Source: Cinnamomum chago (taxonomy: Eukaryota; Streptophyta; Magnoliopsida; Laurales; Lauraceae). From it: DNA of 64,000 bases. A program made the translations under genes and the position numbers. Of this stretch, positions 5,878-59,843 are shown piece after piece. The DNA lies in the NCBI GenBank assembly GCA_038049695.1, contig CP142458.1, positions 43,617,501 through 43,681,500 of the forward strand. Direction: 5' to 3'. Numbering within the stretch: position 1 is the first letter of the stretch; every line of letters starts with the position of its first letter. The notes under the pieces are model-generated. The model saw only the letters and a list, made by a program, of their open reading frames with translations. It had not been told where the DNA came from and ran no database searches.

Positions 5878-5979
5878 TGGTGCCCAGGTGCAGGAGACGT
5901 TGCCTTTGAGGAGGAGCGTCAGGAGGAGGCTCTTGAGCCACCCCCAGTGAGAGAGTGGCAGCCCGACGATGTCAACTAG
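5878..5979 (+). CDS. Conserved LTR mini-frame (exon-like), copy in LTR D
   Basis: This is a 33-codon frame with stop, following the pattern W-C-P-G, then F-E-E-E-R-Q-E-E-A, E-P, E-W-Q-P-D-D-V, stop. The same frame, with the stop at the same place, is found in the array LTR, in the minus-strand LTRs and, with a 3-codon insertion, in the LTR of C. A TGCCCAG|GT site (cut after 5887) at the start looks like a 3' splice site. No in-frame ATG precedes it nearby, so it would have to be a terminal exon. I do not recognise the product; it is acidic and very short. That it is coding is an inference from cross-family conservation. Confidence 0.4.
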   Translation, partial: WCPGAGDVAFEEERQEEALEPPPVREWQPDDVN

Positions 5980-6323
5980 ACGTCGGGCGGGTTCTTGAGT
6001 TTCGTTACATTTTGTCATGGGGTTCTTTTTATTATTTTTGAGAATTGTATTGGCCTTGTTGGCCTTTTATGGGATGTAACTAAACTTAACTTACTTTTGT
6101 GTTAGTCTCATAACTTGAATTGTGTTGGGAATGCCTTGTTAAACTCCTTTCGTTTGATACTATGTCTTATTCTTAATTGTCATAGCACTTAAAAAAAAAT
6201 TATTAGTGCTTATCTTGATGTGATTTGCTACACGCTTCCGTAAACTTGTTCATGTGAGTTAGATTCCGTGTGTCTAGGGAATCCTCACCGCGGGAACTTG
6301 TGGGAAAACAATGTAACAACACG

Positions 6324-6355
6324 TCGCGGGCCCGGGATCTGTTCCGAGGTCGCGA
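6324..6355. repeat. Inverted repeat at the 3' end of LTR D
   Basis: TCGCGGGCCCGGGA and TCCGAGGTCGCGA form an imperfect hairpin a few bases before the terminal CA. The same structure is at the 3' end of the array LTRs (28722-28753 and equivalents), and a related GC-rich one is at the ends of L1-L3. Confidence 0.6.
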
Positions 6356-6357
6356 CA

Positions 6358-7886
6358 CCTTCTGGGAAGGGATTTTTACCCTATTTTGGATGGACTTTGG
6401 TGGAACATGGTTACCCTTTTTTTGGACTCATTTGACTTATAGTAAAGATGTTTTAGCAGATATTCTTTACGGTTAATCCAGTTGTATCAGGATCTAACTT
6501 AGTTCAATCTTGAAAGGTACGGGACAGCATGATACTCTTATTTAAATCTATGCACAAAGATTGTTCGTCCGAGTATCGTGAACCCTAACCCTTTCGTTGA
6601 CTGAATAGGTTGTACGATGCTTCAGGATTGACATTATACTTAGGATTGGATTGTTTATCGTCTTCGATTCTGAATTGTACCATCTGGTACTATCTACATG
6701 TCATGAGCATGTTCTTTAGTCTATTTGCTTTACTTTATTAGAGGATCACTTTGAGAACTTAGATGATGGACTTAGGATCCCCTTTATTGTTTCGTTTGCT
6801 TGGATGTTCGTTTGAAGTGTTAAGGCTAGGGAGCTTTGATTCTCAGGCTTAAACAGAAATACTACTGAAGTTGGTTTGAGGTTTGAGTTGATTTGGAATA
6901 AAGTAGTTTCTCTAATGTTATTGAATCTTGTTCGCGCAAGAAATTAAGCCTAGCCCTTCACCAATGTCTTTAGGATTCTTTGTGTCAGGCACCATTCAGT
7001 TGTTAACGTTCAACACAGTTGGGGCACCATCTGTGAGAGGACTAATACTTATCCTCGAGTTGTTTGTTCCTCGAAGCGAGACAGAGCCAGAGCTACTTGA
7101 GTTGAGAGTTGTTTGTTCCTCGAAGCGAGACAGAACCAGAGCTCACGAAGCTTGAGTTACTAGAGCTACGGGTTGTTTGTTATTGGATACTGGGTTTTAT
7201 CCCAATTGATGATATATTAGCATATGTGGACCACCTACTTTGATAGTTTGTTTATGATTCGAATGCAATGCATCTCTTACGATCGGAGTGCTATGCATAT
7301 ATTATAACCATGTTTATTGTTTACTCTCTTTAGTACTGCATATCTATGTTGATGATATATCTATCGTCTTGCCATCCGTGGTGTTGATGATGCCACTCTT
7401 GGTGCATAGGTACCAAGCCTTTCTACCCCGAGGAGGAGGAGGCGACGGAAAAAGTTCAGGCAGATCAGCCTGATGACTTCCTAGAGTATAGTACGGACGA
7501 CATTGTATAGCCGTGACGACCCCGTATATGAGAGCCTTCACGATTCATCCTCTAACTTCATCTTTTGATTTATTATACTTCTGTTTAGGCCTAGTTTTAG
7601 AGTGGCCTTCTTCTTTGTAATTAATATTTTGTTAACAGTCTCAAACTCTAACTCTAATTATGTTATTCAGTAATTTGCTCTTAACTATAGATCTTTAAGA
7701 TACCAATTGCATTTATGAAACTTCCGCTAATTTTTTTATATATTTGAGGAAATGTTTATGCCTCACAGCGGTCTTCAATCCAGAAAGGACATGATTAGGG
7801 CAAGTGACACGTGATTAATATTGGAAATTTTTTTAATTGGCCCTAATGTCAAGCATAACCCCGGTTTCACTTTTGAGGGCGTGACA
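6358..7886 (+). mobile_element. 5' LTR of element C (3' part)
   Basis: The right edge is fixed by ...GGGCGTGACA followed by a PBS. The left part is cut by LTR D, so the LTR start and its promoter are not in the window. It aligns only patchily with the other LTRs, but it carries its own version of the conserved mini-frame at 7400-7510. No other coding sequence is seen. Confidence 0.65.
7400..7510 (+). CDS. Conserved LTR mini-frame, element C version
   Basis: This is a 36-codon frame plus stop: W-C-I-G, then F-Y-P-E-E-E-E near the start and E-Y-S-T-D-D-I-V before the stop. It matches the D/array/minus-strand versions at W1, G4, P10, E11-E13, the aromatic residue after E, and the D-D pair before the stop, while the middle is diverged and three codons longer. 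GCATAG|GT (cut after 7409) is at the same place as the YAG|GT of the other families. No start codon is evident upstream in frame. Confidence 0.4.
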   Translation, partial: WCIGTKPFYPEEEEATEKVQADQPDDFLEYSTDDIV

Positions 7887-7901: not shown

Positions 7902-8020
7902 GTTACTGATTTCTAGATTAAAAACAAGTAGAAACTTAAGTCGTGTGAGGATTGGTTTTTCTTTAGGTACCTTGGCTTGTGTAGATTGTATAGTTTGTAT
8001 GCTAGATTGAGTCCCATAGG

Positions 8021-8042
8021 AGTAACATTTCTTATCTTGCAG
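8021..8042 (+). other. Candidate 3' splice site before gag of element C
   Basis: AGTAACATTTCTTATCTTGCAG ends one base before the gag ATG. It has a branch-point-like TAAC, a pyrimidine run and CAG. Elements A and the array have comparable CTAAC...CAG sequences 4-5 bases before their gag start. Use of the site is inferred. Confidence 0.45.
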
Positions 8043-8043
8043 T

Positions 8044-9387
8044 ATGGCTGGGGGACATACTCGCTCTACCCAAAATAACGACCATGCCGGTTCTAGTGGA
8101 AATGAATCAGTGGAGACTAGATTCGACCAGTTGATGCAAGCCTTTGTGGATTCTCAAACGGCACAGGCTCAGAACTAGACATAGCAGAGGGAAGAGCAGC
8201 ACAAGCAGAAGGAATATTAGGCTACCTTCCAGACTCAGATGTTGCAATTTTTGCAAAGGCCAGCCCCGATACCTCAAGTCATCATGCCTCCTAGGGTGAC
8301 AGACTTGAATGATATTTATGATAAATTCATGAAGAGGAACCCACCAGCGTACTTTGGAAACGAGGACCCCCTCGATGCTGATGAGTGGGTAGTACAGATG
8401 GAGAAGATCTTCAAGGTCTTCCAGTGTTCAGGGAGGGAGAGTGTTCAGTTGGCATCTTACATGTTCCGAGGAGTGGCAGAGTTGTGGTGGAAATCGGTCA
8501 TGACACCTTATGACACGATAGAGGATATCGAAGCTTGGACGTCATTTCAGACACTCTTTTGAGCTAAGTATATCCCACCCCACATTCAGGCTCAGATGCT
8601 TATAGAGTTCGAATCCTTGGTTCAAGGAGAGGATCCAGTCCAACTCTACGAGCATAAATTTACCAACCTCTCTAGGTTTGCACCGACCTTGGTTCGTCTT
8701 GAGGCTAACAAGGTCATGAGGTTTATTCGGGGACTGAGACCCGATATCCAGATGGAGGTGACATCTGTTACCTTAATCACATGTGAGGAGAACCTCAAGT
8801 GTGTGTATTGGGCCGAAGAGTCCATTCGGAAGAAGACCCTCTATGCACAGCAGCTTCAGCTCATACTCGTACCAGTTTGGAATCCAGGTTCGGGACAATT
8901 GTAGCAGTGTCCACAACACCCATATCAGTATCAGCAATACCAGCAGCAACAAGGCAAGAGGCCAAGATTTGATCAGATACGTAAAGCTTTCTACGAGCGT
9001 TGTGGCAAGAACTCGCATACTACTGCGAATTGCAGATGGAAGACATGGGCATGTTTCGAGTGTGGTTCGATGGACCACCAGAGAAGAGATTGCCATCGGG
9101 CTCAAGAGCAAGGTGTGAGGAACGCAGCTCCTCGACCACCATTGGCAGCACGGCCTTTGAGGCAAGCACCTCAGCATCAACCTAGGGCACCTCAGCAGCC
9201 ATAATAGCTTAGACTTCCAGCACCACCCTAGACTAGAGGACAATATAGACCCCAGGGGTAGCAGAGGCCACTAGGCCAGCAATATGCACAACATAGACCT
9301 CAGGGACAACAGTGGCAGCAACAGAAGCCTCAAATACATGGGAAGCTTTTCACCTTAGATCAGCGGGAGGGTGAGGAAACGGGAGGA
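8044..9387 (+). pseudogene. gag: gag of element C, nine in-frame stops
   Basis: The frame starts at ATG 8044 (MAGGHTRST) and stays in one frame into the protease, but is broken by stops at 8176, 8182, 8218, 8560, 8902, 9202, 9205, 9229 and 9259: seven TAG, one TGA and one TAA. The capsid-like part has PPAYFGNEDPLDADEW and AELWWKSV, typical of Ty3/gypsy Gag. A zinc-knuckle region at about 8989-9105 has a first finger lacking its leading Cys (ERCGKNSHTTANC) and an intact second one (CFECGSMDHQRRDC). A Q/P-rich linker follows. All nine stops are explainable by single C-to-T changes (CAG, CGA or CAA), with no frameshift. The original product would be the nucleocapsid precursor. Confidence 0.85.
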
Positions 9388-10563: not shown

Positions 10564-10665
10564 CTACATGACGTCATCAGCACGCCACTCAACTAACTGT
10601 TGCGGTTCTACGACCGCCTCCTCATGCTCCTCCTCGGGATAACCAACAACGGGACCTGAGTACCA
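10564..10665 (-). CDS. Conserved LTR mini-frame, copy in L1
   Basis: 33 codons and a stop: W-Y-S-G, then G-Y-P-E-E-E-H-E-E-A, E-P, E-W-R-A-D-D-V-M, stop. It has exactly the same length as the D and array copies, although much of the nucleotide sequence differs. Conserved residues use different third bases (the two Asp codons, Glu and Pro before the middle), which suggests selection on the peptide. ACTCAG|GT is in the same position as the acceptor-like site elsewhere. Confidence 0.45.
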   Translation of the reverse strand, partial: WYSGPVVGYPEEEHEEAVVEPQQLVEWRADDVM

Positions 10666-13359: not shown

Positions 13360-13461
13360 CTACATGACGTCATCAGCACGCCACTCAACTAACTGTTGCG
13401 GTTCTACGACCGCCTCCTCGTGCTCCTCCTCGGGATAACCAACAACGGGACCTGAGTACCA
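13360..13461 (-). CDS. Conserved LTR mini-frame, copy in L2
   Basis: Same frame and length as in L1, with the same stop. The nucleotide changes seen relative to L1 are few and include a synonymous one in the acidic stretch (CAT to CAC for His). ACTCAG|GT is kept. Confidence 0.4.
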   Translation of the reverse strand, partial: WYSGPVVGYPEEEHEEAVVEPQQLVEWRADDVM

Positions 13462-15460: not shown

Positions 15461-16031
15461 TGGAAAACCCTGGATTCACTCTCTTGTGCTGGAAAAAGGA
15501 AATGGAAGGGAAAGGGGTCTCCTTATAAACAAGTGGGGAGTGGGCTCCACTACTAACAATCTAATTGGGCTGAAAACATGGCTTTCGGGGCTTCTAATGG
15601 ATTCGACGAAGAATAGGAATGTGATCGTCGAAATATCTAGTTTCCAAAAAGTATATGTTTAGCGGGTTTCGGGAATATCAAGTTTTGGGTACAGATTTTG
15701 TGCACAATGACTGTTTTGCCCTCAAGGCTATGAAATAGGGTTTCGGGATCTCGAACAGGGACGGGATCAACATAAAAGTTGTAGGGATTAACAATACCAA
15801 TAAGATGAGATTGAAACAATGAATGCAAAATCTCCGATAAATCCTCAAGTGCATGCAAGGTCATAAAAAGGAACCCCCAAAGGGTTCCACTAACACAAGA
15901 CAATCGAAATTCCCCAAAAACTATTTCAAAAGCTATTCCAAACCCAACTTAGCCAAAATCATTAATCAAGCTTAGAACTAACACACGGCTTAATTAGTAC
16001 TAATCGAGTTCTCTCGGGTCGGGGTCTTACA

Positions 16032-16335
16032 GCTATGAAGTCGGGTTTCGGGAACTCAAACGGGGACGGGATCAACATGAAAGTTGTATGGAATAAAAAT
16101 ACCAATAATATGAGATTAAAACAATGAATGCAAAATCTCCGATAAATCCTCAAGCGCATGCATGGTCATAAAAAGGAACCCTCGAAGGGCCCCACTATCA
16201 CAAAGCAATAAAAATTCCCCAAAACTATTTCAAAAGCTAGTCCAAACCGAACTTAGCCAAAATCACTAATCCAGCTTAGAACTAACACACGGCTTAATTA
16301 GTACTAATCGAGTTCACTTGGGCCGGGGTCTTACA
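16032..16335 (-). mobile_element. T1: 5' end segment of an alpha LTR
   Basis: It begins with GCTAT, the target duplication of L2, and ends GGGGTCTTACA, i.e. the TGTAAGACCCC start of a minus-strand LTR next to the purine tract of element A. Together with L1 it makes one LTR split by L2. It is almost identical to T2 at 24381-24684 (about six differences in 304 bp) and clearly different from the matching 5' ends of L2 and L3. Confidence 0.8.
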
Positions 16336-16350: not shown

Positions 16351-18041
16351 GGCATTTGGTCCTCCAAATGAATTATAAATCTCACCTCCGGTAAAAGATG
16401 TGGATAGTTCTTTTGAACTTGATCTCGTAATTCCCATGTGGCCTCTTTCGGTCCATGATTCTCCCATAGAACCTTTACCCACTGAATAGTCCGTGTCCTC
16501 AACTCTTGTTCCTTCGTATCAATAATCTGAACGGGCTTCTCAACGTAGGTAGCATCCTCTCGAATCCCCAATGGCTCATGCTGGAGTACATGTGAAGGAT
16601 CGGGGACATACTTCTTCAACATAGACACATGGAAAACGTTGTGTACGCCGGATAACTCAAGTGGTAAGGCTAACCTATAAGCCACATCACCAATCTTGCT
16701 CACAATGTCATATGGTCCAATATATCTCCGTGATAACTTGCCCTTCTGTCCAAATCTCAATGTTCCTCTCGTAGGTGACACTTTCAAGAAAACCTTATCT
16801 CCTTCTTTGAACTGTAAATCCCTTCTATGAGAATCTGCATAGCTTTTCTGCCTACTCCGGGCTACCTTCAGACGTTCTTGGATCAATTTCACTTTGTCGC
16901 TGGTTTCACTTACTATCGTCGGTCCATGGAAACTGCGAATTCCTACTTCTTCCCAACAAACCGGTGTCCTACACCTTCTGCCATACAAAGCCTCAAAAGG
17001 AGTCATCCGAATGCTCGAGTGGTAACTATTGTTGTAAGCAAACTCACACAACGGTAGAGTCTCATCCCATTGAGTCTTGAAATCTAACACACAAGCACGG
17101 AGCATATCCTCAAGAGTTTGAATCGTTCTCTCTGATTGACCATCTGTCTGCGGGTGATACGCTGTGCTAAACTGTAGTTTTGTACCCATAGAGTCATGTA
17201 GCGTCTTCCAAAACCTCGAGACAAATCTGCTGTCTCTGTCAGATGTGATAGAAACTGGCTGCCCATGTCGACTGACAATCTCGCTGACAAACAACTCTGC
17301 CAAAAGTAGCATGTGCATCTTCTTCCCTATTTTCATAGCAAGGAAATGCGCTGACTTGGTGAGACGGTCCACAATGACCCATATCGCATCGTTGCTTCTG
17401 CTAGTCCTCGGTAATCCCGAAATAAAGTCCATAGTAATGTGCTCCCATTTCCATTCCGGAATCTCTAGTGGCTGTAACAATCCTGGAGGCCTCTGATGTT
17501 CCGCTTTTATCAACTGACAAGTCATACAACAGGAGACAAATGCTGCAATTTCTCTCTTCATATTGGTCCACCAAAATCTACCCTTCAAGTTCTGATACAT
17601 CTTCGTGCTGCCTGGATGCATAGAGTACTTCGTACTCTGAGCCTCAGTCATGATATCATTCCTCAAGCCTTTAAGGTTAGGCACGCATAGACGGTCACGG
17701 TAGTACAAAACCCCATCAACAATATGGAAATCGGGACGTTTTGCTATGTGCTCTGAAATCTTGGCCAACTCTGGATCTTGCAACTGACTATCCTTGATCT
17801 TCTGAATGAAAGAAGGTTTTGACACTGTCATGTTAGCTAACAAAACACCCTTCCTTAGTGGCTGTAGGTCTAAACTCAACTCTTCAAATTGCTCAAAGAT
17901 ACAAGTGCCACTTAGGTTTGCCAAGCCTACTGATTTCCTACTCAAGGCATCGGTAACTACATTAGCTTTCCCCGGGTGGTATTTGATTGGAAAGTCATAG
18001 TCCTTGATATATTCCATCCATCTTCTCTGCCTCATGTTCAA
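16347..18041 (-). pseudogene. pol: Element A pol, 3' part: end of RNaseH, integrase, chromodomain
   Basis: A 564-codon open segment that is the continuation of the frame ending at 18048 (a TAG replaces CAG between them). It starts at the end of RNaseH ([24 protein letters not shown]), then integrase. The zinc-binding HHCC motif has its first His changed ([12 protein letters not shown]) but keeps CMTC. The DD35E residues are all present ([27 protein letters not shown]). The GPY motif and a chromodomain (PVQIID...VKVLWENH...ATWELRDQV) close the protein. It is the C-terminal half of the Tekay-type polyprotein and cannot be made as part of it without readthrough. Confidence 0.85.
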
Positions 18042-19763: not shown

Positions 19764-21113
19764 TACATTTCCCGCTGCCTCTGCATCAACTCTATTGACC
19801 CCGTAGATTTTCCCTCGATGTTGGGGCCTATTCTGTGCCTGCTGTGGTCTGCCTTGTGGTGCATTCCTATGCTGCTACGGTGCACACTGATTGTGGATCT
19901 GTCCCTGCTGACGAGCCTGTTGTTGTTGTTGTTGTTGTGGTCTATGCTGCTGCTGTTGTGGTGCTTGTTGCTGTAGGGGCCTTGCCTGATTCTGAACAAC
20001 GATTGCATTCTGTGGTGCTGCTGGACGCTGTGCCCCTTGCTGCTGCTACTGATTCTGCCTTGGATAGTCTTTCATCTGATGGGCCATGGAACCACATCTG
20101 AAACATGCTCCTGTGAGTGTACGACACTGTGCACTCTCATGGTTCTTCCCACAATGGGTACAAACCAATGGACCCTGAGCATTCTGTTCTGTCCTCTATC
20201 TCTTGTTCTGATGGTTCCTTTGCTGGTAGTTCTGCTGCTGAGCTTGTCCCTTGCCTTGAACTCTAAGGATCTTGTTGTGACAGTTCTCAAACTTATAGGC
20301 CCTCTTGACCGCTTCATCAAAAGTTGCAGGTGATACTACTCCGGTGGCATCTCTCTCAATAAAAGGGTTAAGTCCTTCAAAGAACTTGGCAATTTTCTTC
20401 TCCACCGTATCCACCAACTCCGGAGCATATCTGGACAATCTCTCGAACTTGGTGAGGTATTCGAGAACTGTCAAACTTCCTTGCACAAGCTGTTGAAATT
20501 CTATGGCCTTTTGCTTCTTGATATGAGCGGGTACATACTTATCATGAAATTGCCTCTTGAAGTTTGCCTAAACCTCTGCCTCAGCCATGGTCCTGTATTC
20601 TTCCCTCACCGTCTTCCACCATCTATCTGCTGTACCGCTAAATAGAGATGATGCTAGCTTCACTCTTTCACCTCCGGTACAATGGAAAATCTCAAAGATG
20701 TTCTCCGTATGTTCCAACCAGTCATCTGCAGCCAATGGATCTTCTATTCCAAGGAACTCTTTCGGAGCTCTCTTCCGAAACCGCTCAAACAAAGCGTTCG
20801 GGTCATCTTGCCTCTGATTGATAACGATTGCGGGCTGAGGTTGAACCAGCTCGGGTCTTCTTTGTAACACTTCTAATAACTGTCTCTGCATATCTGCCAA
20901 TTCTCTAGCATGGTCTTCCTCTCTTTTGAGCATTTGTTCTTGCAACCTAGATTGATTCTCATTAGCTTGACGCAGTTTATCAAGCATTGCCTGCATCATC
21001 TGCTGAAATTGATTCGGTGGGTTGTTATCAGCCCTATCCTCTTCAAGTGGAACTGTGTGATCACTATCGCTAGCAGAAGGGTTTCCATTTACTGGTCTCT
21101 TACGAGGTGGCAT
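19764..21113 (-). pseudogene. gag: Element A gag, broken by stops
   Basis: The start is ATG at 21113 (MPPRKRPVNG), five bases after a splice-acceptor-like CAG. The first segment to 20568 has a coiled-coil-like, Gln/Arg-rich stretch and the capsid pattern FLGIEDPLAADDWLEHTE...DRWWKTV. It stops at TAG and continues around 20486-20196 (YLTKFERLSRYAPELV), stops again, then the zinc knuckles at about 20080-20160: CTHCGKNHESAQC and CFRCGSMAHQMKDY, where the last Cys has become Tyr. A further TAG and a Gln-rich linker follow. At least three stops are TAG where CAG fits. Confidence 0.8.
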
Positions 21114-21117
21114 GATG

Positions 21118-21137
21118 CTGCAAAACAAATTGTTAGC
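21118..21137 (-). other. Candidate 3' splice site before gag of element A
   Basis: The minus strand has GCTAACAATTTGTTTTGCAG, with a branch-point-like CTAAC, a T-rich tract and CAG, four bases before the gag ATG. It corresponds to TACTAAC...TTTTACAG in the array and TAACATTTC...TTGCAG in C. Confidence 0.5.
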
Positions 21138-21258
21138 ACATAAAAATCAAATAAAGGGTTACACATTGCTCACACGATACTAGCTAACGAAGAGTCTAAC
21201 GAATCCTCGCCACGTCCTTAGGATTTCTAGTTTCTTTTAATCGTTTGAAACACGTCTC

Positions 21259-21270: not shown

Positions 21271-21687
21271 GTCTGTCGCGACCCCGGACCGGGCCCACGG
21301 GACTGATCCGGGATTGGGACATTTATTAATGATTGATGATGATACTACGACATTTAATGATTTCATATATTTATTTAATTTCCCACAGGTGTCCGCGGTG
21401 AGGATATCACAACCATAAATGAATATTTCTTTTAAGTGCGGATGCGTGTAGCAAATCAAATGATAATTCACTTCTAATCACAAGATAAGTCACATGTATA
21501 AACGAGTATCAGAATGAGCAATGATCGTTAGCATGTTATCCAAAGTAAGTTAAAGTTTATACAATTATCACTTAATTACATTTCCCAAAAATAGAGGCCC
21601 ACAAGGCCAATATAACCAAAATACCAATCCAAAGAATGGTTAAATAGTTTCCCAAAATATATAAAGTCTCTCATAGCAACCAAATGT

Positions 21688-21789
21688 CTACATGACGTCA
21701 TCAGCACGCCACTCAACTAACTGTTGCGGTTCTACGACCGCCTCCTCGTGCTCCTCCTCGGGATAACCAACAACGAGACCTGAGTACCA
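21688..21789 (-). CDS. Conserved LTR mini-frame, copy in L3
   Basis: Same frame, length and stop as L1 and L2. One replacement is seen near the start (codon CCC to CTC, Pro to Leu) in the part that is not conserved between families. Confidence 0.4.
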   Translation of the reverse strand, partial: WYSGLVVGYPEEEHEEAVVEPQQLVEWRADDVM

Positions 21790-23808: not shown

Positions 23809-24380
23809 TGGAAAACCCTAGATTCACTCTCTTGTGCTGGAAAAAGGAAATGGAAGGGAAAGGGGTCTCCTTATAAACAAGTGGGGAGTGGGCTCCACTA
23901 CTAACAATCTAATTGGGCTGAAAACATGGCTTTCGGGGCTTCTAATGGATTCGACCAAGAAGAGGAAAGTGATCTTCGAAATATCTAGTTTTCAAAAAGT
24001 ATATGTTTCGTGGGTTTCGGGAATATCAAGTTTTGGGTACAGATTTTGTGCACAATGACTGTTTTGCCCTCAAGGCTATGAAATAGGGTTTCGGGGATCT
24101 CGAACAAGGACGGGATCGACATAAAAGTTGTAGGGATTAACAATACCAATAAGATGAGATTGAAACAATGAATGCAAAATCTCCGATAAATCCTCAAGTG
24201 CATGCAAGGTCATAAAAAGGAACCCCCAAAGGGTCCCACTAACACAAGACAATCGAAATTCCCCAAAAACTATTTCAAAAGCTATTCCAAACCCAACTTA
24301 GCCAAACTCATTAATCAAGCTTAGAACTAACACACGGCTTAATTAGTACTAATCGAGTTCTCTCGGGTCGGGGTCTTACA

Positions 24381-24684
24381 GCTATGAAGTCGGGTTTCGG
24401 GAACTCAAACGGGGACGGGATCAACATGAAAGTTGTATGGAATAACAATACCAATAAAATGAGATTAAAACAATGAATGCAAAATCTACGATAAATCCTC
24501 AAGCGCATGCATGGTCATAAGAAGGAACCCTCGAAGGGCCCCACTATCACAAAGCAATAAAAATTCCCCAAAACTATTTCAAAAGCTAGTCCAAACCGAA
24601 CTTAGCCAAAATCACTAATCCAGCTTAGAACTAACACACGGCTTAATTAGTACTAATCGAGTTCACTTGGTTCGGGGTCTTACA
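24381..24684 (-). mobile_element. T2: 5' end segment of the alpha LTR of element B
   Basis: Starts with GCTAT after L3 and ends GGGGTCTTACA next to the purine tract of B (24685-24699). It is the near-twin of T1. The matching remainder of this LTR, past the insertion point, is not found next to L3 but only at 10156-12939. Confidence 0.8.
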
Positions 24685-24695: not shown

Positions 24696-27507
24696 TTAGG
24701 GCATTTGGTCCTCCAAATGAAATATAAAACTCACCTTTGGTAAAAGATGTGGATAGTTCTTCTGAACTTGATCTCGTAATTCCCATGTGGCCTCTTTCGG
24801 TTCATGATTCTCCCATAGAACCTTTACCCACTGAATAGTCCGTGTCCTCAACTCTTGTTCCTTCATATCAATAATCTGAACGGGCTTCTCAACGTAGGTA
24901 GCATCCTCTCGAATCCCCAATGGCTCATGCTGGAGTACATGTGAAGGATCGGGGACATACTTCTTCAACATAGACACATGGAAAACGTTGTGTACGCCGG
25001 ATAGCTCAGGTGGTAAGGCTAACCTATAAGCGACATCACCAATCTTGCTCACAATGTCATATGGTCCAATGTATCTCCGTGATAGCTTGCCCTTCTGTCC
25101 AAATCTCAATGTTCCTCTCCTTGGTAAATCCCTCCTATGAGAATCTACATAGCTTTTTTGTCTACTCCGGGCTACTTTCAGACGTTCTTGGATCAACTTC
25201 ACTTTGTCGCTGGTTTCACTTACTATCGTCGGCCCATGGAAACTGCGAACTCCAACTTCCTCCCAACAAACCGGTGTCCTACACCTTCTGCCATACAAAG
25301 CCTCAAAAGGAGCCATTCCAATGCTCGAGTGGTAACTGTTGTTGTAAGCATTCTCACACAATAGTAGAGTCTCGTCCCATTGTGTCTTGATATCTAACAG
25401 ACAAGCACGGAGCATATCCTCAAGAGTCTGAATTGTTCTCTCTGATTGACCATCTGTCTGCGGGTGATAGGCTGTACTAAACTGTAGTTTCATACCCATA
25501 GACTCATGTAGCGTCTTCCAAAACCTCGAGACAAATCTGCTGTCTCTGTCAAATGTGATAGAAACTGGCTACCCATGTCGACCGACGATCTTGCTGACAA
25601 ACAACTCTGCTAAAGGTAGCATGTGCATCTTCTTCCCTGTCTTCATAGCAATGAAATGCGCTGACTTGGTGAGTCGGTCCATAATGACCCATATCGCATC
25701 GTTGCCTCTGTTAGTCCTTGGTAGTCCTGAAATAAAGTCCATGGTAATGTGCTCCCATTTCCATTTCTGGATCTCTAACGGTTGTAACAATCCTGGAGGC
25801 CTCTGATGTTCTGCCTTTATCAACTGACAAGTCATACAACGGGAGACAAACGCTGCAATTTCTCTCTTCATATTGTTCCACCAAAATCTGCCCTTCAAGT
25901 TCTGATACATCTTCATGCTGCCTGGATGCATAGAGTACTTTGTACTGTGAGCTTCGGTCATGATATCATTCCTCAAGTCTTCAATATTTGGCACGCATAG
26001 ACGGTCACGGTAGTACAAAACTCTATCAACAAAACGGAAGTCAGGACGTTCTGTTATATGCTCTGAAATCTTGGCCAACTCTGGATCTTGCAACTGACTA
26101 TCCTTGATCTTCTGAATGAAAGAAGGTTCTGACACTGTCATGTTAGCTAACAAAACACCCTTCCTTAGTGGCTGTAGATCTAAACTCAACTCTTCAAATT
26201 GCTCAAAGATACAAGTGCCACTTAGGTTTGCCAAGCCTACTGATTTTCTGCACAAGGCATCGGCAACTATATTAGCTTTCCCCGGGTGGTACTTGATTGG
26301 GAAATCATAGTCCTTGATATATTCCATCCATCTTCTCTGCCTCATGTTCAATTCCTTCTGAGAAAACAAGTATTGTAAGCTGCGGTGATCGGAGTGGACT
26401 TCGAACTTCTCTCCACAAAGGTAATGTCTCCAAATTTTCAAAGCGAAAACAACCGCTGCTAACTCAAGATCATGGGTGGCATAGCTCTTCTTGTGATCTT
26501 TCAACTGTCGATATCCATAAGCAATCACTTTTCCTTCTTGCATCAACACACAACCAAGTCCAACATTCGAAGCAACGGTAAAAATGGTAAAACCATCGCT
26601 CCCAGATGGTAAAGTAAGGACTGGTGCTGTAGTCAATCTCTTCTTTAGCTCTTGGAAACTATCTTCACACTGTTCTGTCCACACATATGGCACATTCTTC
26701 CTTGCCAACTTCGTCAAAGGTGACGCAATCGACGAAAATCCCTGCACAAACCTCCTATAATAACCTGCTAAACCCAGAAAACTTCTGATTTCTGTTACAT
26801 TCTTCGGTCTTTCCCAACTTGTAACTGCTTCAATCTTAGACGGATCCACTGACAATCCTTCTTTGGAGATGATGTGCCCAAAAATGCTACTTGTTCCAAC
26901 CAAAATTTACACTTGTTGAGCTTCGCATATAGCTGATTCTCTCTCAAGAGTTGCAGTGCTATCCTCAAGTTCTCTGGTCTTGGAGTATACCAAAATGTCA
27001 TCTATGAACACTACAACAAACTGATCCAAATACTCTGCAAATATCTTGTTCATCAACGCCATGAACACTGCCGGCGCATTAGTCAACCCAAATGGCATCA
27101 CTAGGAACTCATAGTGGCCATATATTGTCCGGAAAGCTGTTTTCAACACATCTGATTCTCTAACTCTCAGTTGATGGTAACCAGATCTCAAATCAATCTT
27201 CAAAAAGTATGATGCACCTTGTAACTGATCAAACAATTCATCTATTCTTGGCAATGGGTATTTGTTCTTGGTGGTCATTTGGTTTAATCTTCTGTAATCT
27301 ATACACATTCTCATCGAACCATCCGTCTTCTTGACAAATAAAACTGGAGCTCCCCATGGTGAAATGCTCGGTCTCACAAAACCTTTGTCTAACAATTCTT
27401 GCAACTGAGTCTTCAACCTCCCAACTCTGCTGGAGCCATTCTATATGGTGCAATAGATATCGGAGCGGTCCCTGGTAACAACTCAATAGTGAAATCAATC
27501 TCTCTGA
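24696..27507 (-). pseudogene. pol: Element B pol (RT, RNaseH, integrase, chromodomain), degenerate and truncated
   Basis: A second copy of the A-type pol, reading from RT at 27500 to the chromodomain near 24700. [11 protein letters not shown], the intact integrase HHCC start ([12 protein letters not shown]) and the DDE region are recognisable. Breaks: one-base deletions near 27417 and 26880, a small deletion near 26970 after [13 protein letters not shown], a TAG in place of CAG at about 25570 (HG*PVS), and a 39-bp deletion near 25128 removing the segment before RGTLRFGQ. The sequence ends at 27507, where array LTR sequence begins; gag, PBS and the 5' LTR of B are absent. Confidence 0.85.
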
Positions 27508-28753: not shown

Positions 28754-28759
28754 CAGGAC

Positions 28760-44494: not shown

Positions 44495-47415
44495 TGTTAG
44501 ACCCCGACCCAGACCAATTCGATTAGTGTGCGATTAGTGTGTGTTTAGTCCTAAGTGAGTTTAGTGGTTGTTGGGATAGAAATGATTAGTTTAGTCTTGG
44601 ACATAGCTTTGGGAAATTTGAGAACGTTTAGTATAAATTAGACACACTCAGGAAGGCCTGAGTACACGTGTAAGCTTGGGAAGATCGTGTCGTTTTCCGT
44701 GTGAGTGTGATTTTGATTTCATTTAAATGATCTTTTTATGTGTTACAACTTTCGTTTTAAGGCCATTCATGTTTGAAGCCCAAAAGTACATGTTTCGGCC
44801 CAAAGAGGGTAAAATTGTCTTTCTTGCATAAATCTGGACACAATTTTCGAGATCTCATAAACATGTCAAAAATATACTTTTTGGAAACTAGATATTTCGA
44901 CGATCGTTTTATCCTTCTTCGTCGAACTCATCCGAGGCCCACAAGATCATGTTTTAGCCATTTCAAGTTCAGGTCACATGGGGCCCATGAGTCATCACTT
45001 AATCCCCCTTTCCCTCTTCTTCCACTCACTTTACCAAATCTCTGCAATTTCTAAATCTAGGGCAAGGAAAACCTCTTTTCTTCTCCATCTTCCCCATCTT
45101 GTTTGATCTAGCTAGGGAGCTTCAAAGAAGATTCTAAGACCACCATTTTCTTCATCCCCTTGCAAGCTCTCCATTGATGCAAGTTTCTTGAGTTTCTAAG
45201 TTGGGCAAGAACTTCATTTCCTCTCTTCTCTCTTGTTTGACCTTCTCTAGGTAAGAGCTTCCACTCATGTCTTTCATAGAGTTATTTTGGTTCCTCAAGA
45301 TTATGTTTTTCATGTTTGCAAACCCTTTTGTTAAAATGGGTTCTTTGGTTCCATTTTTGAGTGAGTTTGTGTGTTTTCTCTTGGGTTTTCTTGTAGTGTT
45401 GGCTTAGCTTTTGAGTGAAGTGCTTGGAGAGGATTATTAGCATTTGGGCAAGGCAAGTAATCTCTATAGGACCATTGTGCATGTATATTTTAAGCTACAT
45501 TGTTGTTTTCGGAAATTTTGCATATGAAAATGTTTATAAGCTTCATGATCATGTTTTCCTTGGATTGGATGTTTGGGATTGTGAGAAATGTGTATTTTAT
45601 CCCTTGGAGAGCATGGAGGCTCAGGGAGTGCAGGTGGAATGAAAAACAAGAAGAAGAGAAGAAGGAAATGTGGAAAATCTGCACTGAACTGTACTTCCCG
45701 TGCAGTTTCGGTCAGCTGACGGCTAGCCGTAATTCCCATTTCGGCTAACCGCGAGCCAACCGAAATCAGCGGTTCCTTTTCCAGTAGCTGACTTTTGCTT
45801 CAGGGTCCTGCGCTCAGCCCTGCGGTTAGCTCACGGCTAGCCGCCAGTTCCCTTGCGGCTAACCGTAAGCCAACCGAAATTATTACGGTTCCTTTTCCAG
45901 AGAGCAACATCAGACCTGGGTTTTCAGCGGTCAGCTTACGGCTAGCCGCCAGTCTCTATTTCGGCTAGCCGCCAGCTGACCGCAAGCTGACCGAAATTGA
46001 CCAATTCCTAGTTTTGAAGAAGTTTTGCAAGAGTGAAAACTAGAACATGTTAAGTGACCTTTAGCTTGATATTGTGTACTCGAAACTCGAGATGTCTTGA
46101 ACTTCCGGGACACCAACTCTATTCCAAATTCCAACATTTGGGCTTCGAATACACAAAGATCAATTAAGGGTCCTCACATGTGCTTGATAGGCTTTGTGTT
46201 CGTACCTTAGTTTGATATAATGAATATCACCGTGTACTCGTTTTGAAGTTTAGTACAAGCTAGTTTTGAAAATGTGTTCCAAGAAAAAGGGGATCACTTC
46301 CTAAGCGTGTTATGCATATTAATTATGCACGTGCTAGTCGTGTTCATCGTGTTTCGTTAAGTGATTTCTCCCTTTTTCTTATATCGACATGTTTAGACCG
46401 TGTTTCGCGTGTTTTGTGCATTCATGAATTAAGTAAACACCACTGAGCTTAGACTGCCCTTTCAGTCTGATCCACTGCCTGGGGGTCTTTAAACATGTGG
46501 ACTGTCTGCAGACTAGTCGTGTATTTATTACACATCGTGCGTGTCCGGTTCCGCGGCCGGAATTCCCGTCTTTGTGGGAAATCGTGTCGTGCTTATATTA
46601 TGTATATCGTGCTTGTCGTGCGTGCTTGCTCTTTTCATTATATAAATGATAGAGAAAGGATGGGCTCTTTGTGGATTGTAACTATTCATGATATATTATG
46701 TATTCTTGCTAGTTTGTTTTGGTATCTCAGCTTTGTTCGTATTCTTGAAAATGTATCTCAGCTTTGTTCGTATTCTTAAAAATGTATCTCAGCTTTGATA
46801 GTATTTCATACCAAAGATTTGCTTACATGTTTTCTCTAAATGTTATTGTTCATGTTCATGCCTACATTGATTACCTGCCAAACCGTCGTGTTTGACCCTT
46901 GTTTATTGGTGCCCAGGTGCAGGAGACGTTGCCTTTGAGGAGGAGCGTCAGGAGGAGGCTTGTGAGCCAACTCCCGTGAGAGAGTGGCAGCCCGACGATG
47001 TCATTTAGATGTCGGTCTGGTTCTCGAGTTTCGTCACCTTTAGTCTTGGGGTTTCTTTTGGTTATTTTGAGATTGTATTGACCTTTATTGGTCTCTTATG
47101 GGTTGTACTAAACTTAACTTACTTTCGTGTTAAACTTATAACTTGAACTATGTTTGGGAATGCCATGATAACTCTTTTCTTTGATGCTATGTCTTGTTAT
47201 TAAATGTTATAGCACTTAAAGATTTGATTGTGCTTATCGTGATGTGTTTTGCTACACGCTTCCGCAATCGTGTACGTGTGAGTCAGATTCCGCGTGTCTT
47301 TGGGAATCCTCACCGGGGGAACCTGTGGGAAAATAATGAACCATTAAGCAATTAACAACACCGAATGCAATGCAACACTCGTCGCGGGCCCGGGATCCGT
47401 TCCGGGGTCGCGACA
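44495..47415 (+). mobile_element. Array LTR3
   Basis: Complete, 2921 bp. Variants: C45813 (CGCTCAGCC), ACTTCCGGG near 46103, A46383, C46822, CACCGGGGG near 47315. The combination shares single variants with LTR2, LTR4 and LTR1 in turn. Confidence 0.95.
46907..47008 (+). CDS. Conserved LTR mini-frame, array LTR3
   Basis: Unchanged, as are the flanking acceptor-like site and stop. Confidence 0.4.
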   Translation, partial: WCPGAGDVAFEEERQEEACEPTPVREWQPDDVI

Positions 47416-50714: not shown

Positions 50715-53635
50715 TGTTAGACCCCGACCCAGACCAATTCGATTAGTGTGCGATTAGTGTGTGTTTAGTCCTAAGTGAGTTTAGTGGTTGTTGGGATAGA
50801 AATGATTAGTTTAGTCTTGGACATAGCTTTGGGAAATTTGAGAACGTTTAGTATAAATTAGACACACTCAGGAAGGCCTGAGTACACGTGTAAGCTTGGG
50901 AAGATCGTGTCGTTTTCCGTGTGAGTGTGATTTTGATTTCATTTAAATGATCTTTTTATGTGTTACAACTTTCGTTTTAAGGCCATTCATGTTTGAAGCC
51001 CAAAAGTACATGTTTCGGCCCAAAGAGGGTAAAATTGTCTTTCTTGCATAAATCTGGACACAATTTTCGAGATCTCATAAACATGTCAAAAATATACTTT
51101 TTGGAAACTAGATATTTCGACGATCGTTTTATCCTTCTTCGTCGAACTCATCCGAGGCCCACAAGATCATGTTTTAGCCATTTCAAGTTCAGGTCACATG
51201 GGGCCCATGAGTCATCACTTAATCCCCCTTTCCCTCTTCTTCCACTCACTTTACCAAATCTCTGCAATTTCTAAATCTAGGGCAAGGAAAACCTCTTTTC
51301 TTCTCCATCTTCCCCATCTTGTTTGATCTAGCTAGGGAGCTTCAAAGAAGATTCTAAGACCACCATTTTCTTCATCCCCTTGCAAGCTCTCCATTGATGC
51401 AAGTTTCTTGAGTTTCTAAGTTGGGCAAGAACTTCATTTCCTCTCTTCTCTCTTGTTTGACCTTCTCTAGGTAAGAGCTTCCACTCATGTCTTTCATAGA
51501 GTTATTTTGGTTCCTCAAGATTATGTTTTTCATGTTTGCAAACCCTTTTGTTAAAATGGGTTCTTTGGTTCCATTTTTGAGTGAGTTTGTGTGTTTTCTC
51601 TTGGGTTTTCTTGTAGTGTTGGCTTAGCTTTTGAGTGAAGTGCTTGGAGAGGATTATTAGCATTTGGGCAAGGCAAGTAATCTCTATAGGACCATTGTGC
51701 ATGTATATTTTAAGCTACATTGTTGTTTTCGGAAATTTTGCATATGAAAATGTTTATAAGCTTCATGATCATGTTTTCCTTGGATTGGATGTTTGGGATT
51801 GTGAGAAATGTGTATTTTATCCCTTGGAGAGCATGGAGGCTCAGGGAGTGCAGGTGGAATGAAAAACAAGAAGAAGAGAAGAAGGAAATGTGGAAAATCT
51901 GCACTGAACTGTACTTCCCGTGCAGTTTCGGTCAGCTGACGGCTAGCCGTAATTCCCATTTCGGCTAACCGCGAGCCAACCGAAATCAGCGGTTCCTTTT
52001 CCAGTAGCTGACTTTTGCTTCAGGGTCCTGCGCTCAGCCCTGCGGTTAGCTCACGGCTAGCCGCCAGTTCCCTTGCGGCTAACCGTAAGCCAACCGAAAT
52101 TATTACGGTTCCTTTTCCAGAGAGCAACATCAGACCTGGGTTTTCAGCGGTCAGCTTACGGCTAGCCGCCAGTCTCTATTTCGGCTAGCCGCCAGCTGAC
52201 CGCAAGCTGACCGAAATTGACCAATTCCTAGTTTTGAAGAAGTTTTGCAAGAGTGAAAACTAGAACATGTTAAGTGACCTTTAGCTTGATATTGTGTACT
52301 CGAAACTCGAGATGTCTTGAACTTTCGGGACACCAACTCTATTCCAAATTCCAACATTTGGGCTTCGAATACACAAAGATCAATTAAGGGTCCTCACATG
52401 TGCTTGATAGGCTTTGTGTTCGTACCTTAGTTTGATATAATGAATATCACCGTGTACTCGTTTTGAAGTTTAGTACAAGCTAGTTTTGAAAATGTGTTCC
52501 AAGAAAAAGGGGATCACTTCCTAAGCGTGTTATGCATATTAATTATGCACGTGCTAGTCGTGTTCATCGTGTTTCGTTAAGTGATTTCTCCCTTTTTCTT
52601 ATATCGACATGTTTAGACCGTGTTTCGCGTGTTTTGTGCATTCATGAATTAAGTAAACACCACTGAGCTTAGACTGCCCTTTCAGTCTGATCCACTGCCT
52701 GGGGGTCTTTAAACATGTGGACTGTCTGCAGACTAGTCGTGTATTTATTACACATCGTGCGTGTCCGGTTCCGCGGCCGGAATTCCCGTCTTTGTGGGAA
52801 ATCGTGTCGTGCTTATATTATGTATATCGTGCTTGTCGTGCGTGCTTGCTCTTTTCATTATATAAATGATAGAGAAAGGATGGGCTCTTTGTGGATTGTA
52901 ACTATTCATGATATATTATGTATTCTTGCTAGTTTGTTTTGGTATCTCAGCTTTGTTCGTATTCTTGAAAATGTATCTCAGCTTTGTTCGTATTCTTAAA
53001 AATGTATCTCAGCTTTGATAGTATTTCATACCAAAGATTTGGTTACATGTTTTCTCTAAATGTTATTGTTCATGTTCATGCCTACATTGATTACCTGCCA
53101 AACCGTCGTGTTTGACCCTTGTTTATTGGTGCCCAGGTGCAGGAGACGTTGCCTTTGAGGAGGAGCGTCAGGAGGAGGCTTGTGAGCCAACTCCCGTGAG
53201 AGAGTGGCAGCCCGACGATGTCATTTAGATGTCGGTCTGGTTCTCGAGTTTCGTCACCTTTAGTCTTGGGGTTTCTTTTGGTTATTTTGAGATTGTATTG
53301 ACCTTTATTGGTCTCTTATGGGTTGTACTAAACTTAACTTACTTTCGTGTTAAACTTATAACTTGAACTATGTTTGGGAATGCCATGATAACTCTTTTCT
53401 TTGATGCTATGTCTTGTTATTAAATGTTATAGCACTTAAAGATTTGATTGTGCTTATCGTGATGTGTTTTGCTACACGCTTCCGCAATCGTGTACGTGTG
53501 AGTCAGATTCCGCGTGTCTTTGGGAATCCTCACCGCGGGAACCTGTGGGAAAATAATGAACCATTAAGCAATTAACAACACCGAATGCAATGCAACACTC
53601 GTCGCGGGCCCGGGATCCGTTCCGGGGTCGCGACA
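50715..53635 (+). mobile_element. Array LTR4
   Basis: Complete, 2921 bp. Variants: C52033 (as LTR3), ACTTTCGGG near 52323 (as LTR2 and LTR5), A52603, G53042 (as LTR2 and LTR5), CACCGCGGG. Confidence 0.95.
53127..53228 (+). CDS. Conserved LTR mini-frame, array LTR4
   Basis: Unchanged relative to the other array copies. Confidence 0.4.
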   Translation, partial: WCPGAGDVAFEEERQEEACEPTPVREWQPDDVI

Positions 53636-56800: not shown

Positions 56801-56897
56801 ACTTTGGGAAAATCACGAACCAGAGGAAGCCACCTGGGAATTGAGAGAGCAAGTGCAGAGGAAGTATCCACAGCTTTTACCAGAGGTAATTGTTTGA
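53805..56897 (+). CDS. pol: Array unit 5 pol (1030 aa)
   Basis: Open. Combines R295 (as unit 2) with I682 (as units 3 and 4), a recombinant-looking pair. Catalytic residues and chromodomain are intact. PBS at 53640. Confidence 0.9.
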
Positions 56898-56934
56898 TTT
56901 ATTTGGTGGACCAAATATCCTAAGGGGTGGAGGA

Positions 56935-59843
56935 TGTTAGACCCCGACCCAGACCAATTCGATTAGTGTGCGATTAGTGTGTGTTTAGTCCTAAGTGAGT
57001 TTAGTGGTTGTTGGGATAGAAATGATTAGTTTAGTCTTGGACATAGCTTTGGGAAATTTGAGAACGTTTAGTATAAATTAGACACACTCAGGAAGGCCTG
57101 AGTACACGTGTAAGCTTGGGAAGATCGTGTCGTTTTCCGTGTGAGTGTGATTTTGATTTCATTTAAATGATCTTTTTATGTGTTACAACTTTCGTTTTAA
57201 GGCCATTCATGTTTGAAGCCCAAAAGTACATGTTTCGGCCCAAAGAGGGTAAAATTGTCTTTCTTGCATAAATCTGGACACAATTTTCGAGATCTCATAA
57301 ACATGTCAAAAATATACTTTTTGGAAACTAGATATTTCGACGATCGTTTTATCCTTCTTCGTCGAACTCATCCGAGGCCCACAAGATCATGTTTTAGCCA
57401 TTTCAAGTTCAGGTCACATGGGGCCCATGAGTCATCACTTAATCCCCCTTTCCCTCTTCTTCCACTCACTTTACCAAATCTCTGCAATTTCTAAATCTAG
57501 GGCAAGGAAAACCTCTTTTCTTCTCCATCTTCCCCATCTTGTTTGATCTAGCTAGGGAGCTTCAAAGAAGATTCTAAGACCACCATTTTCTTCATCCCCT
57601 TGCAAGCTCTCCATTGATGCAAGTTTCTTGAGTTTCTAAGTTGGGCAAGAACTTCATTTCCTCTCTTCTCTCTTGTTTGACCTTCTCTAGGTAAGAGCTT
57701 CCACTCATGTCTTTCATAGAGTTATTTTGGTTCCTCAAGATTATGTTTTTCATGTTTGCAAACCCTTTTGTTAAAATGGGTTCTTTGGTTCCATTTTTGA
57801 GTGAGTTTGTGTGTTTTCTCTTGGGTTTTCTTGTAGTGTTGGCTTAGCTTTTGAGTGAAGTGCTTGGAGAGGATTATTAGCATTTGGGCAAGGCAAGTAA
57901 TCTCTATAGGACCATTGTGCATGTATATTTTAAGCTACATTGTTGTTTTCGGAAATTTTGCATATGAAAATGTTTATAAGCTTCATGATCATGTTTTCCT
58001 TGGATTGGATGTTTGGGATTGTGAGAAATGTGTATTTTATCCCTTGGAGAGCATGGAGGCTCAGGGAGTGCAGGTGGAATGAAAAACAAGAAGAAGAGAA
58101 GAAGGAAATGTGGAAAATCTGCACTGAACTGTACTTCCCGTGCAGTTTCGGTCAGCTGACGGCTAGCCGTAATTCCCATTTCGGCTAACCGCGAGCCAAC
58201 CGAAATCAGCGGTTCCTTTTCCAGTAGCTGACTTTTGCTTCAGGGTCCTGCGGTTAGCTCACGGCTAGCCGCCAATTCCCTTGCGGCTAACCGTAAGCCA
58301 ACCGAAATTATTACGGTTCCTTTTCCAGAGAGCAACATCAGACCTGGGTTTTCAGCGGTCAGCTTACGGCTAGCCGCCAGTCTCTATTTCGGCTAGCCGC
58401 CAGCTGACCGCAAGCTGACCGAAATTGACCAATTCCTAGTTTTGAAGAAGTTTTGCAAGAGTGAAAACTAGAACATGTTAAGTGACCTTTAGCTTGATAT
58501 TGTGTACTCGAAACTCGAGATGTCTTGAACTTTCGGGACACCAACTCTATTCCAAATTCCAACATTTGGGCTTCGAATACACAAAGATCAATTAAGGGTC
58601 CTCACATGTGCTTGATAGGCTTTGTGTTCGTACCTTAGTTTGATATAATGAATATCACCGTGTACTCGTTTTGAAGTTTAGTACAAGCTAGTTTTGAAAA
58701 TGTGTTCCAAGAAAAAGGGGATCACTTCCTAAGCGTGTTATGCATATTAATTATGCACGTGCTAGTCGTGTTCATCGTGTTTCGTTAAGTGATTTCTCCC
58801 TTTTTCTTATATCGACATGTTTAGACCGTGTTTCGCGTGTTTTGTGCATTCATGAATTAAGTAAACACCACTGAGCTTAGACTGCCCTTTCAGTCTGATC
58901 CACTGCCTAGGGGTCTTTAAACATGTGGACTGTCTGCAGACTAGTCGTGTATTTATTACACATCGTGCGTGTCCGGTTCCGCGGCCGGAATTCCCGTCTT
59001 TGTGGGAAATCGTGTCGTGCTTATATTATGTATATCGTGCTTGTCGTGCGTGCTTGCTCTTTTCATTATATAAATGATAGAGAAAGGATGGGCTCTTTGT
59101 GGATTGTAACTATTCATGATATATTATGTATTCTTGCTAGTTTGTTTTGGTATCTCAGCTTTGTTCGTATTCTTGAAAATGTATCTCAGCTTTGTTCGTA
59201 TTCTTAAAAATTTATCTCAGCTTTGATAGTATTTCATACCAAAGATTTGGTTACATGTTTTCTCTAAATGTTATTGTTCATGTTCATGCCTACATTGATT
59301 ACCTGCCAAACCGTCGTGTTTGACCCTTGTTTATTGGTGCCCAGGTGCAGGAGACGTTGCCTTTGAGGAGGAGCGTCAGGAGGAGGCTTGTGAGCCAACT
59401 CCCGTGAGAGAGTGGCAGCCCGACGATGTCATTTAGATGTCGGTCTGGTTCTCGAGTTTCGTCACCTTTAGTCTTGGGGTTTCTTTTGGTTATTTTGAGA
59501 TTGTATTGACCTTTATTGGTCTCTTATGGGTTGTACTAAACTTAACTTACTTTCGTGTTAAACTTATAACTTGAACTATGTTTGGGAATGCCATGATAAC
59601 TCTTTTCTTTGATGCTATGTCTTGTTATTAAATGTTATAGCACTTAAAGATTTGATTGTGCTTATCGTGATGTGTTTTGCTACACGCTTCCGCAATCGTG
59701 TACGTGTGAGTCAGATTCCGCGTGTCTTTGGGAATCCTCACCGCGGGAACCTGTGGGAAAATAATGAACCATTAAGCAATTAACAACACCGAATGCAATG
59801 CAACACTCGTCGCGGGCCCGGGATCCGTTCCGGGGTCGCGACA
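56935..59843 (+). mobile_element. Array LTR5 (2909 bp, 12-bp deletion)
   Basis: As LTR4, except for loss of 12 bp near 58252 inside the palindrome cluster, where CTGCGGT...CTGCGGT direct repeats flank the lost bases. A few private changes follow (for example CCAATTCCC near 58272, GCCTAGGGG near 58908). It accounts for the 6208-bp spacing to unit 6. Confidence 0.95.
59335..59436 (+). CDS. Conserved LTR mini-frame, array LTR5
   Basis: Unchanged despite the deletion upstream in the same LTR. Confidence 0.4.
   Translation, partial: WCPGAGDVAFEEERQEEACEPTPVREWQPDDVI

Follow-up and report, generated by a model that had tools for sequence, protein, structure and literature searches.

A putative spliced 3'-terminal exon in the long terminal repeats of Tekay-type retrotransposons of Cinnamomum chago

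The retroviral genes that overlap long terminal repeats (LTRs), such as sag of mouse mammary tumor virus (MMTV) and nef of the lentiviruses, encode protein within the LTR as long open reading frames (ORFs) with their own ATG, and in the CRM chromoviruses the integrase C terminus extends contiguously into the 3' LTR. Here we describe a short piece of the LTRs of Tekay-type (Del-type) retrotransposons in a 64,000-nucleotide (nt) stretch of the Cinnamomum chago genome (contig CP142458.1, positions 43,617,501 to 43,681,500; hereafter, the window) that may be the 3'-terminal exon of spliced mRNAs. As with sag and nef, the coding would lie in the LTR, but those genes are long and have an ATG; and unlike the contiguous extension in CRM, this exon would be reached by splicing, about 2.4 kb into the LTR. 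As far as the parts of the sources consulted here describe them, plant LTR retrotransposons can carry additional ORFs (aORFs) beside gag-pol, some of which are expressed by splicing, as is the env-like mRNA of Bagy-2 (Vicient and Casacuberta 2020, PMC7264820). Spliced mRNAs are also described for the Ogre intron and for the short GAG of EVADE and BARE1 (PMC12786077, PMC6317226), although plant elements are generally intronless, with Ogre and EVADE as notable exceptions (PMC12786077).

Like an aORF, the LTR exon would add coding capacity, but in the sections of PMC7264820 that we consulted aORFs lie downstream of pol and ahead of the 3' LTR, in either sense or antisense orientation, whereas the frame described here is tiny, lies in the LTR, and has neither an in-frame ATG nor, therefore, the start codon of its own that characterizes a plant aORF. 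Nowhere does the text of that article contain the wording "within the LTR," "in the LTR," or "inside the LTR." The likeness to Ogre, EVADE, and BARE1 is that splicing parts messages from genomic RNA; in the excerpts consulted, however, their introns lie inside gag-pol, whereas here the signals run from the leader to gag and from the end of pol to an exon in the 3' LTR. The CERV protein of the nematode LTR retrotransposon Cer1 (PMC10309623) is an accessory protein made from a spliced mRNA, as is proposed here, but the part of that source consulted does not describe it as LTR encoded, and the likeness drawn here is one of description. No LTR-encoded terminal exon of a Tekay element was found in the literature searched (including the consulted part of PMC7730604), in which subscription journals were thinly covered.

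A sequence-only reading of the window had pointed out a short frame conserved in the LTRs and had proposed that it is the terminal exon of a small acidic protein or of a Gag-Pol accessory. The frame was indeed present at every position given, that is, in family D, in family C, in the three minus-strand copies of family L (L1 to L3), and in the six LTRs of a tandem array (family A), and it follows the pattern W, G4, EEE, E-[WY], DD, two further codons, and TAG. It is situated some 500 nt short of the 3' end of the LTR, and in the array it ends about 400 nt upstream of that end. The A and L frames, said to be equal in length, aligned without gaps over 30 codons at 53 to 56% nucleotide identity; the four third-base differences also were found (GAG or GAA at E17, CCA or CCG at P18, and GAC or GAT at both D27 and D28), as were YAG/GT at the start of the frame in all families of the window (a slash marks a putative splice junction) and the absence of an ATG from the frame itself. 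The families had been counted as three divergent ones. Three lineages are indeed present, but A and D are not separate: their LTRs are about 80% identical and their exons 92% identical, and they are thus one lineage.

We favor, with about even confidence, the explanation that this piece serves spliced mRNAs of the Tekay-type clade as their 3'-terminal exon, and at the level of sequence the signals around it support that part of the earlier proposal well: an acceptor with a branch-like site, a purine block, a stop codon, a GGCC-rich block, and strong donors upstream. The bases directly preceding the frame are TTGGTRC in every family seen (TTGGTGT in the copy A84), followed by two bases and then AG/GT, except that one copy of family F has GG. 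TTGAC, TTGAT, or a similar YTRAY lies about 25 nt upstream of the AG in all of them. A branch-like YTRAY followed by AG/GT is the arrangement found at plant 3' splice sites, and the conserved 3' splice site expected of a 3'-terminal coding exon is present. The AG was retained in 30/30 A, 29/30 C, and 19/20 L loci, and the stop was TAG in 30/30 A, 28/30 C (one TAA and one out of register), and 19/20 L loci (one out of register), all being close relatives chosen by the adjoining peptide. First-look candidates numbered 7442 for the A/D peptide, 7977 for L, and 993 for C, of which just 150 each were scored. About 60 to 100 nt past the TAG, in D, A84, L3, L45, and L71, is a TTGGCC...TTGGCCT block followed by a GGGA.TGTAA-like sequence; this GGCC-rich block is probably the poly(A) region.

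Two residues listed as conserved in the frame carry less weight. The W is present, but it lies upstream of YAG/GT within TTGGTRC, which is also kept in family F, where there is no such frame; thus, the W probably belongs to the splice site and not to a protein. The EEE, GAGGAGGAG in the DNA, is GAG in 21/21 codons (three codons in seven sequences), third bases included, and so gives no argument for protein selection, whereas the second half of the frame does. We read the block as resembling an exonic splicing enhancer.

Each of the seven pol C termini that extend far enough terminates in a strong 5' splice site, LLP(E or K)/GT. The seven (A; L027, which has the same letters as A; two L elements; and L021, L083, and L089) are six different copies of about five families; L079 breaks off before the site. 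The donors in A and L are given in Table 1; L021 and L083 each have GAG/GTTAGT, and L089, a plant-like contig under a Streptomyces assembly with an integrase 86% identical, has GAG/GTAAGT. Of the 113 GTs common to A and L in the gapless pol alignment, the one with the top summed donor score is LLPE/GT at the last codons. The six different pol ends scored 8.3 to 11.8, and 9% of simulated GAG/GTNNNN sequences reached 8. Past the site the sequences have no common length or stop. These results suggest that the clade has a genuine splice donor here. Inside the LTR, the donor ranked highest by a simple weight matrix of our own lies at the end of a CT-rich leader in all three LTRs in which the leader was covered (A at 32811, D at 4302, and L at 23626 minus). 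Directly 5' of the gag ATG in families A, L, and C is a strong acceptor of textbook form, in which CTAAC or GTAAC is followed by a pyrimidine tract and CAG. The signals at the end of pol and the start of gag, which the sequence-only reading did not include, are in our view the more solid novelty. A candidate small second leader exon, from TTGTAG/ to a GCAAGT donor that is of the GC type in A and L, was also seen (32960-33020; 23510-23430 minus).

If these signals are used, the translated mRNA would be spliced twice, from leader to gag and from the end of pol to the exon in the 3' LTR. The stop codon would thereby sit in the last exon, U3 and most of R would be out of the message, and the unspliced RNA would serve as the genome.

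Whether the frame evolves as protein was examined by comparing families from one genome plus stray contigs, a sample of few families. Three copies, A84 (in L084), L45, and L71, had not been selected by peptide but were found by DNA profile in the flanks of loci; they belong to further subfamilies and carry the exon with the same acceptor and length. Pooled over four within-lineage pairs, each with A or L3 as a member (A-A84, A-D, L3-L45, and L3-L71), the NG86 ratio of nonsynonymous to synonymous differences per site (pN/pS) was 0.31 in the frame of the sequence-only reading (frame 0), 1.54 in the +1 frame, and 0.68 in the +2 frame. Among eight sequences frame 0 gave pN/pS of <1 in 28/28 pairs, which are not independent; it was below the +1 frame in 22 of the 27 pairs for which both were defined and below the +2 frame in 24/28. 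When columns were shuffled over the whole of frame 0, P values were 0.0008 for A-L3, 0.0022 for A-L1, 0.0040 for D-L3, 0.0002 for C-L3, and 0 of 5000 for C-A, the gap in the C alignments having been placed to maximize the score; a set of A-A84 and L3-L45 gave 0 of 2000 and A-L gave 0.0020. A scan of stop-free runs of at least 20 codons covered the exon plus about 0.3 to 0.5 kb on each side, forward strand, for A-A84, L3-L45, and L3-L71. Compared on the six lowest runs per scan, the exon run had the lowest pN/pS in three of the four pair scans; it was 0.26 versus 0.51 for the next of 12 runs in L3-L45 and 0.54 versus 0.66 for the next of 7 in L3-L71. Within-family diversity by codon position was not used, since the loci had been chosen by peptide identity.

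The constraint is in the second half. For codons 15 to 30, shuffle P values were 0 of 3000 (A-L3), 0.0003 (D-L3), 0.0007 (C-L3), 0.0013 (C-A), 0.0060 (A-L71), 0.014 (A-A84), 0.10 (A-L45), 0.10 (L3-L45), and 0.12 (L3-L71), but for codons 1 to 14 there was no significant frame 0 constraint (P, 0.071 to 0.80), and pooled pN/pS there was lowest in the +2 frame (0.42 versus 0.64). Thus, codons 15 to 30 evolve like protein in frame 0, and codons 1 to 14 do not. On the points that had been proposed as checks of the frame, pooled pN/pS favored frame 0, with the constraint in codons 15 to 30; frame 0 was the lowest of the three overall, but not in codons 1 to 14; and A84, L45, and L71 kept the length. 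Indels separate the two C-like copies, L006 and L002.

The lack of significant constraint in codons 1 to 14 and these indels weigh against a translated frame, as do several other findings. The +1 frame had the lower pN/pS in 5/27 pairs (four of them with C) and the +2 frame in 4/28; the shuffle P was 0.17 for the set of A-D and L3-L71 and 0.09 for A-D alone, not above chance. In the run scans the lead of the exon in A-A84 was slim (0.29 versus 0.30 for the next of 9), and in A-D the exon run was third of 20 forward runs and fourth of 35 with the reverse strand included, runs without any sign of coding reaching a pN/pS of 0.25. Of the copies not selected by peptide, L71 has TTG in place of the TAG, and the W is missing from L45. 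Family F (L007, L086, and L020) has TGA at codon 9 in 3/3 copies and no EEE block, although its acceptor region is nearly unchanged in sequence (AG in 2/3) and it retains a TGTCATGTAGACATTGAG end; no primer-binding site (PBS) was found within reach of the F copies. The distant element of L090 and L091, with a 55% identical integrase, has no pol-end donor, and scans found no such frame in its LTR piece. Frame 0 requires an upstream exon that ends one base into a codon (phase 1), but the pol donor is in phase 0 in A and L, the families with both parts known, and would lead into the +1 frame. A look through the LTR leader, gag, and pol found no ATG exon with a phase-1 donor common to the families; lower-scoring phase-1 donors with an upstream ATG occur in single families and are not shared.

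Three candidates for the upstream exon were rejected. If the LTR leader were joined straight to the exon at the top donor, the phase would leave it without an ATG in A, D, and L alike. A donor at the start of gag, comparable to that used by the avian retroviruses, occurs in L (ATGCCACCTC/GTAAGA, phase 1), whereas A and C lack it. A shared PLSLD..LIH reading that looked like such an exon (22287-22187 minus, 33997-34060, and about 5459) has a 1-nt deletion in L45 and a stop just before it in A and D, and its motif is in part common to C as DNA, which counts against coding.

On balance, the piece is likely a conserved 3'-terminal exon whose first half resembles an enhancer and whose second half resembles protein-coding sequence. 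We put translation of frame 0 itself at about one half. Given the constraint on its last 16 codons, some splice form probably yields a product that ends in E-[WY]-xx-D-D-[VI]-x-stop. The small acidic protein proposed earlier is thus half supported, by codons 15 to 30 and not by codons 1 to 14 or by a conserved phase-1 ATG exon; an acidic accessory protein is possible.

It is possible, if somewhat doubtful, that the LTR holds an RNA element only, i.e., the acceptor, branch site, and purine enhancer of an intron in the 5' leader or 3' untranslated region, with the frame arising by accident from the GAG repeats together with a short 3' piece that is conserved. The invariant third bases of GAGGAGGAG and the acceptor region kept without the frame in family F favor this explanation, and noncoding LTR motifs, too, are strongly kept between A and L (CACCACTRAGCTT, TTTGCTACACGC.TCCGCA, and CCTCACCGCGG). 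However, changes in codons 15 to 30 fall chiefly on the third base, most of the E, P, W, D, D, and V residues being retained, and pairs outside the earlier reading (A-A84 and L3-L45) have the same third-base pattern.

We consider it rather unlikely that this piece serves Pol as its last coding exon, entered in phase 0 at LLPE/GT and read in the +1 frame as an Arg-rich tail, to the eye basic and like a nuclear localization signal (NLS). A Gag-Pol accessory was the other half of the earlier proposal, and the pol-end donor makes it possible, but as this tail rather than in frame 0. The sole conserved strong donor found fits the phase (from the frame in A and L, with the same codons in L021, L083, and L089), and the tail would read V-Q-E-T-L-P-L-RRSVRRR in A and V-S-L-L-V-I-P-RRSTRRRS in L, giving the patterns V.....[PL]RRS.RRR (A and L) and VPSLSTPRRRRRRKK (C), with a basic run in A, D, L, L45, L71, and C. 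For codons 1 to 14 of C versus L3, pN/pS was 0.59 in the +1 frame versus 1.20 in frame 0, and +1 shuffle P values were 0.014 (C-L3), 0.049 (C-A), 0.063 (A-L3), and 0.067 (D-L3). In contrast, the other five pairs gave P values of 0.25 to 0.90, the pooled within-lineage +1 pN/pS for these codons was >1 (1.63), the +1 stop is at no fixed place, and the Arg run is an automatic by-product of the GAG repeats. Since GAGGAGGAG yields E, R, or G runs by itself, neither the E run nor the R run is evidence.

Two explanations would combine the frames. We think it unlikely that one LTR exon is read in both, giving an Arg-rich integrase tail via LLPE/GT and an acidic protein ending in E-W-xx-D-D-V-x, so that the LTR would be coding as well as regulatory. 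The stricter division, with codons 1 to 14 serving the +1 frame as a Pol tail and codons 15 to 30 serving frame 0 as an acidic C terminus in another splice form, is quite improbable: the signals do fall in different halves and frames, but the +1 signal of codons 1 to 14 is weak and does not appear in within-lineage pairs, and no phase-1 donor is known. Chance likeness of three LTR stretches, for which the short frame and GAG-rich composition might speak, is extremely unlikely and was disfavored already, the exon having been refound with the same acceptor and length in the unselected A84, L45, and L71 and pN/pS having been <1 in every pair.

Table 1 Positions in the window of the putative exon, splice signals, and associated features (a slash marks the splice junction)
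Feature	Position	Strand	Remarks
Exon, family D	5888-5979 (frame, 5878-5979)	+	Begins after CCCAG/GT; frame 0 closes at TAG
Exon, family C	7410-7510 (frame, 7400-7510)	+	After GCATAG/GT; 3 codons more
Exon, family L, L1	10564-10655 (frame, 10564-10665)	-	Frame reading
Exon, family L, L2	13360-13451 (frame, 13360-13461)	-	Frame reading
Exon, family L, L3	21688-21779 (frame, 21688-21789)	-	Frame reading
Exon, array LTR0	28257-28348 (frame, 28247-28348)	+	Frame reading
Exon, array LTR1	34477-34568	+	Repeats at 40697-40788, 46917-47008, 53137-53228, 59345-59436
Acceptor region, array exon	34431-34476	+	CCAAACCGTCGTGTTTGACC...TTGGTGCCCAG; YTRAY-type TTGAC about 25 nt before AG
Block 3' of stop	34630-34680	+	Candidate poly(A) region; GGCC-rich form in D, A84, L3, L45, L71; weaker in array
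Putative pol-end donor, A	32003-32011	+	CCAGAG/GTAATT; intron from 32006; phase 0
Putative pol-end donor, element L	16380-16388	-	CCGGAG/GTGAGA; intron from 16385
Putative pol-end donor, second L element	24729-24737	-	CCAAAG/GTGAGT; intron from 24734
Top LTR donor upstream of exon, array	32808-32816	+	TCTAG/GTAAGA; CT-rich leader end; same in D at 4302
Top LTR donor upstream of exon, L3	23621-23629	-	TACAA/GTAAGT
Putative acceptor 5' of gag ATG, element L	21111-21140	-	TGTGCTAACAATTTGTTTTGCAG/CATCATG
Putative acceptor 5' of gag ATG, element C	8020-8046	+	GAGTAACATTTCTTATCTTGCAG/TATG
Array LTR (TGTTAG...GCGACA)	about 32054-34976	+	PBS at 34980; ends set by eye

The host elements bear reverse transcriptase (RT), RNase H (RH), integrase (INT), and a chromodomain match below the curated cutoff. 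Pfam matches were RVP_2, RVT_1, RT_RNaseH (in L), Integrase_H2C2, and SH3_Tf2-1, and the Chromo matches (E values, 7.8e-4, 5.5e-4, and 1.4e-4) all lay below the curated score cutoff. A Pol of protease (PR)-RT-RH-INT order with a C-terminal chromodomain and a PBS adjoining the 5' LTR, as expected of Tekay/Del, were both found, and the Tekay/Del label rests on the sequence-only reading together with this architecture. The PBS, TGGTATCAGAGC, is at 7890, 28760, 34980, and four more positions and presumably pairs with the initiator Met tRNA. From 27507 to 64000 the window consists of tandem LTR and internal units with a period of 6220 (the last, 6208) that are about 99.7 to 99.8% identical; they are without gag, and their ORF of 1030 amino acids, which also lacks RVP_2, begins shortly before RT. 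The spacing of matches suggests like arrays from C1:44838031 (about 7.83 kb), C2:42334054 (about 6.23 kb), and C6:64290300 (about 7.75 kb). The Ty3/gypsy pieces L089, L090, and L091 are plant-like and come from assemblies of Streptomyces clavifer, Geminicoccus harenae, and Solirubrobacter sp., where they are probably contamination.

Elsewhere in the LTRs, A, D, and L have noncoding motifs in common between the exon and the LTR end, TTTGCTACACGC.TCCG and TCCTCACCGCGG..AC.TGTGGGAAA (about 21375-21465 minus and 34796-34895), and a mid-LTR motif, CACCACTRAGCTT (33979-34040; 22290-22240 minus; about 6985 in C), which is weaker in C and E; the latter looked coding-like at first, but coding was not supported. 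The 5' part of the L LTR contains a 305-nt unit duplicated head to tail at about 89 to 90% identity (15727-16335 and 24075-24684), and the array LTR has degenerate, CGGCTAGCCG-rich repeats about 115 nt apart at 33260-33560. Searches for known homologs gave one subthreshold Rfam match in 27500-35200, located in pol (E value, 0.7), 0 Pfam families among the 5 members of A1, and one PDB match (E value, 1.8); among viral contigs there were 452 pattern matches to the peptide and 6 to the integrase piece, with 0 confirmed.

The clade is abundant, and plant LTRs have been held to be regulatory, not coding; if the explanation that we favor is true, these LTRs would be coding too. If splicing from leader to gag and from the end of pol to the LTR is true, the sorting of genome RNA versus mRNA would become testable, as would, likewise, the escape of the message from nonsense-mediated decay and the origin of the integrase C terminus.

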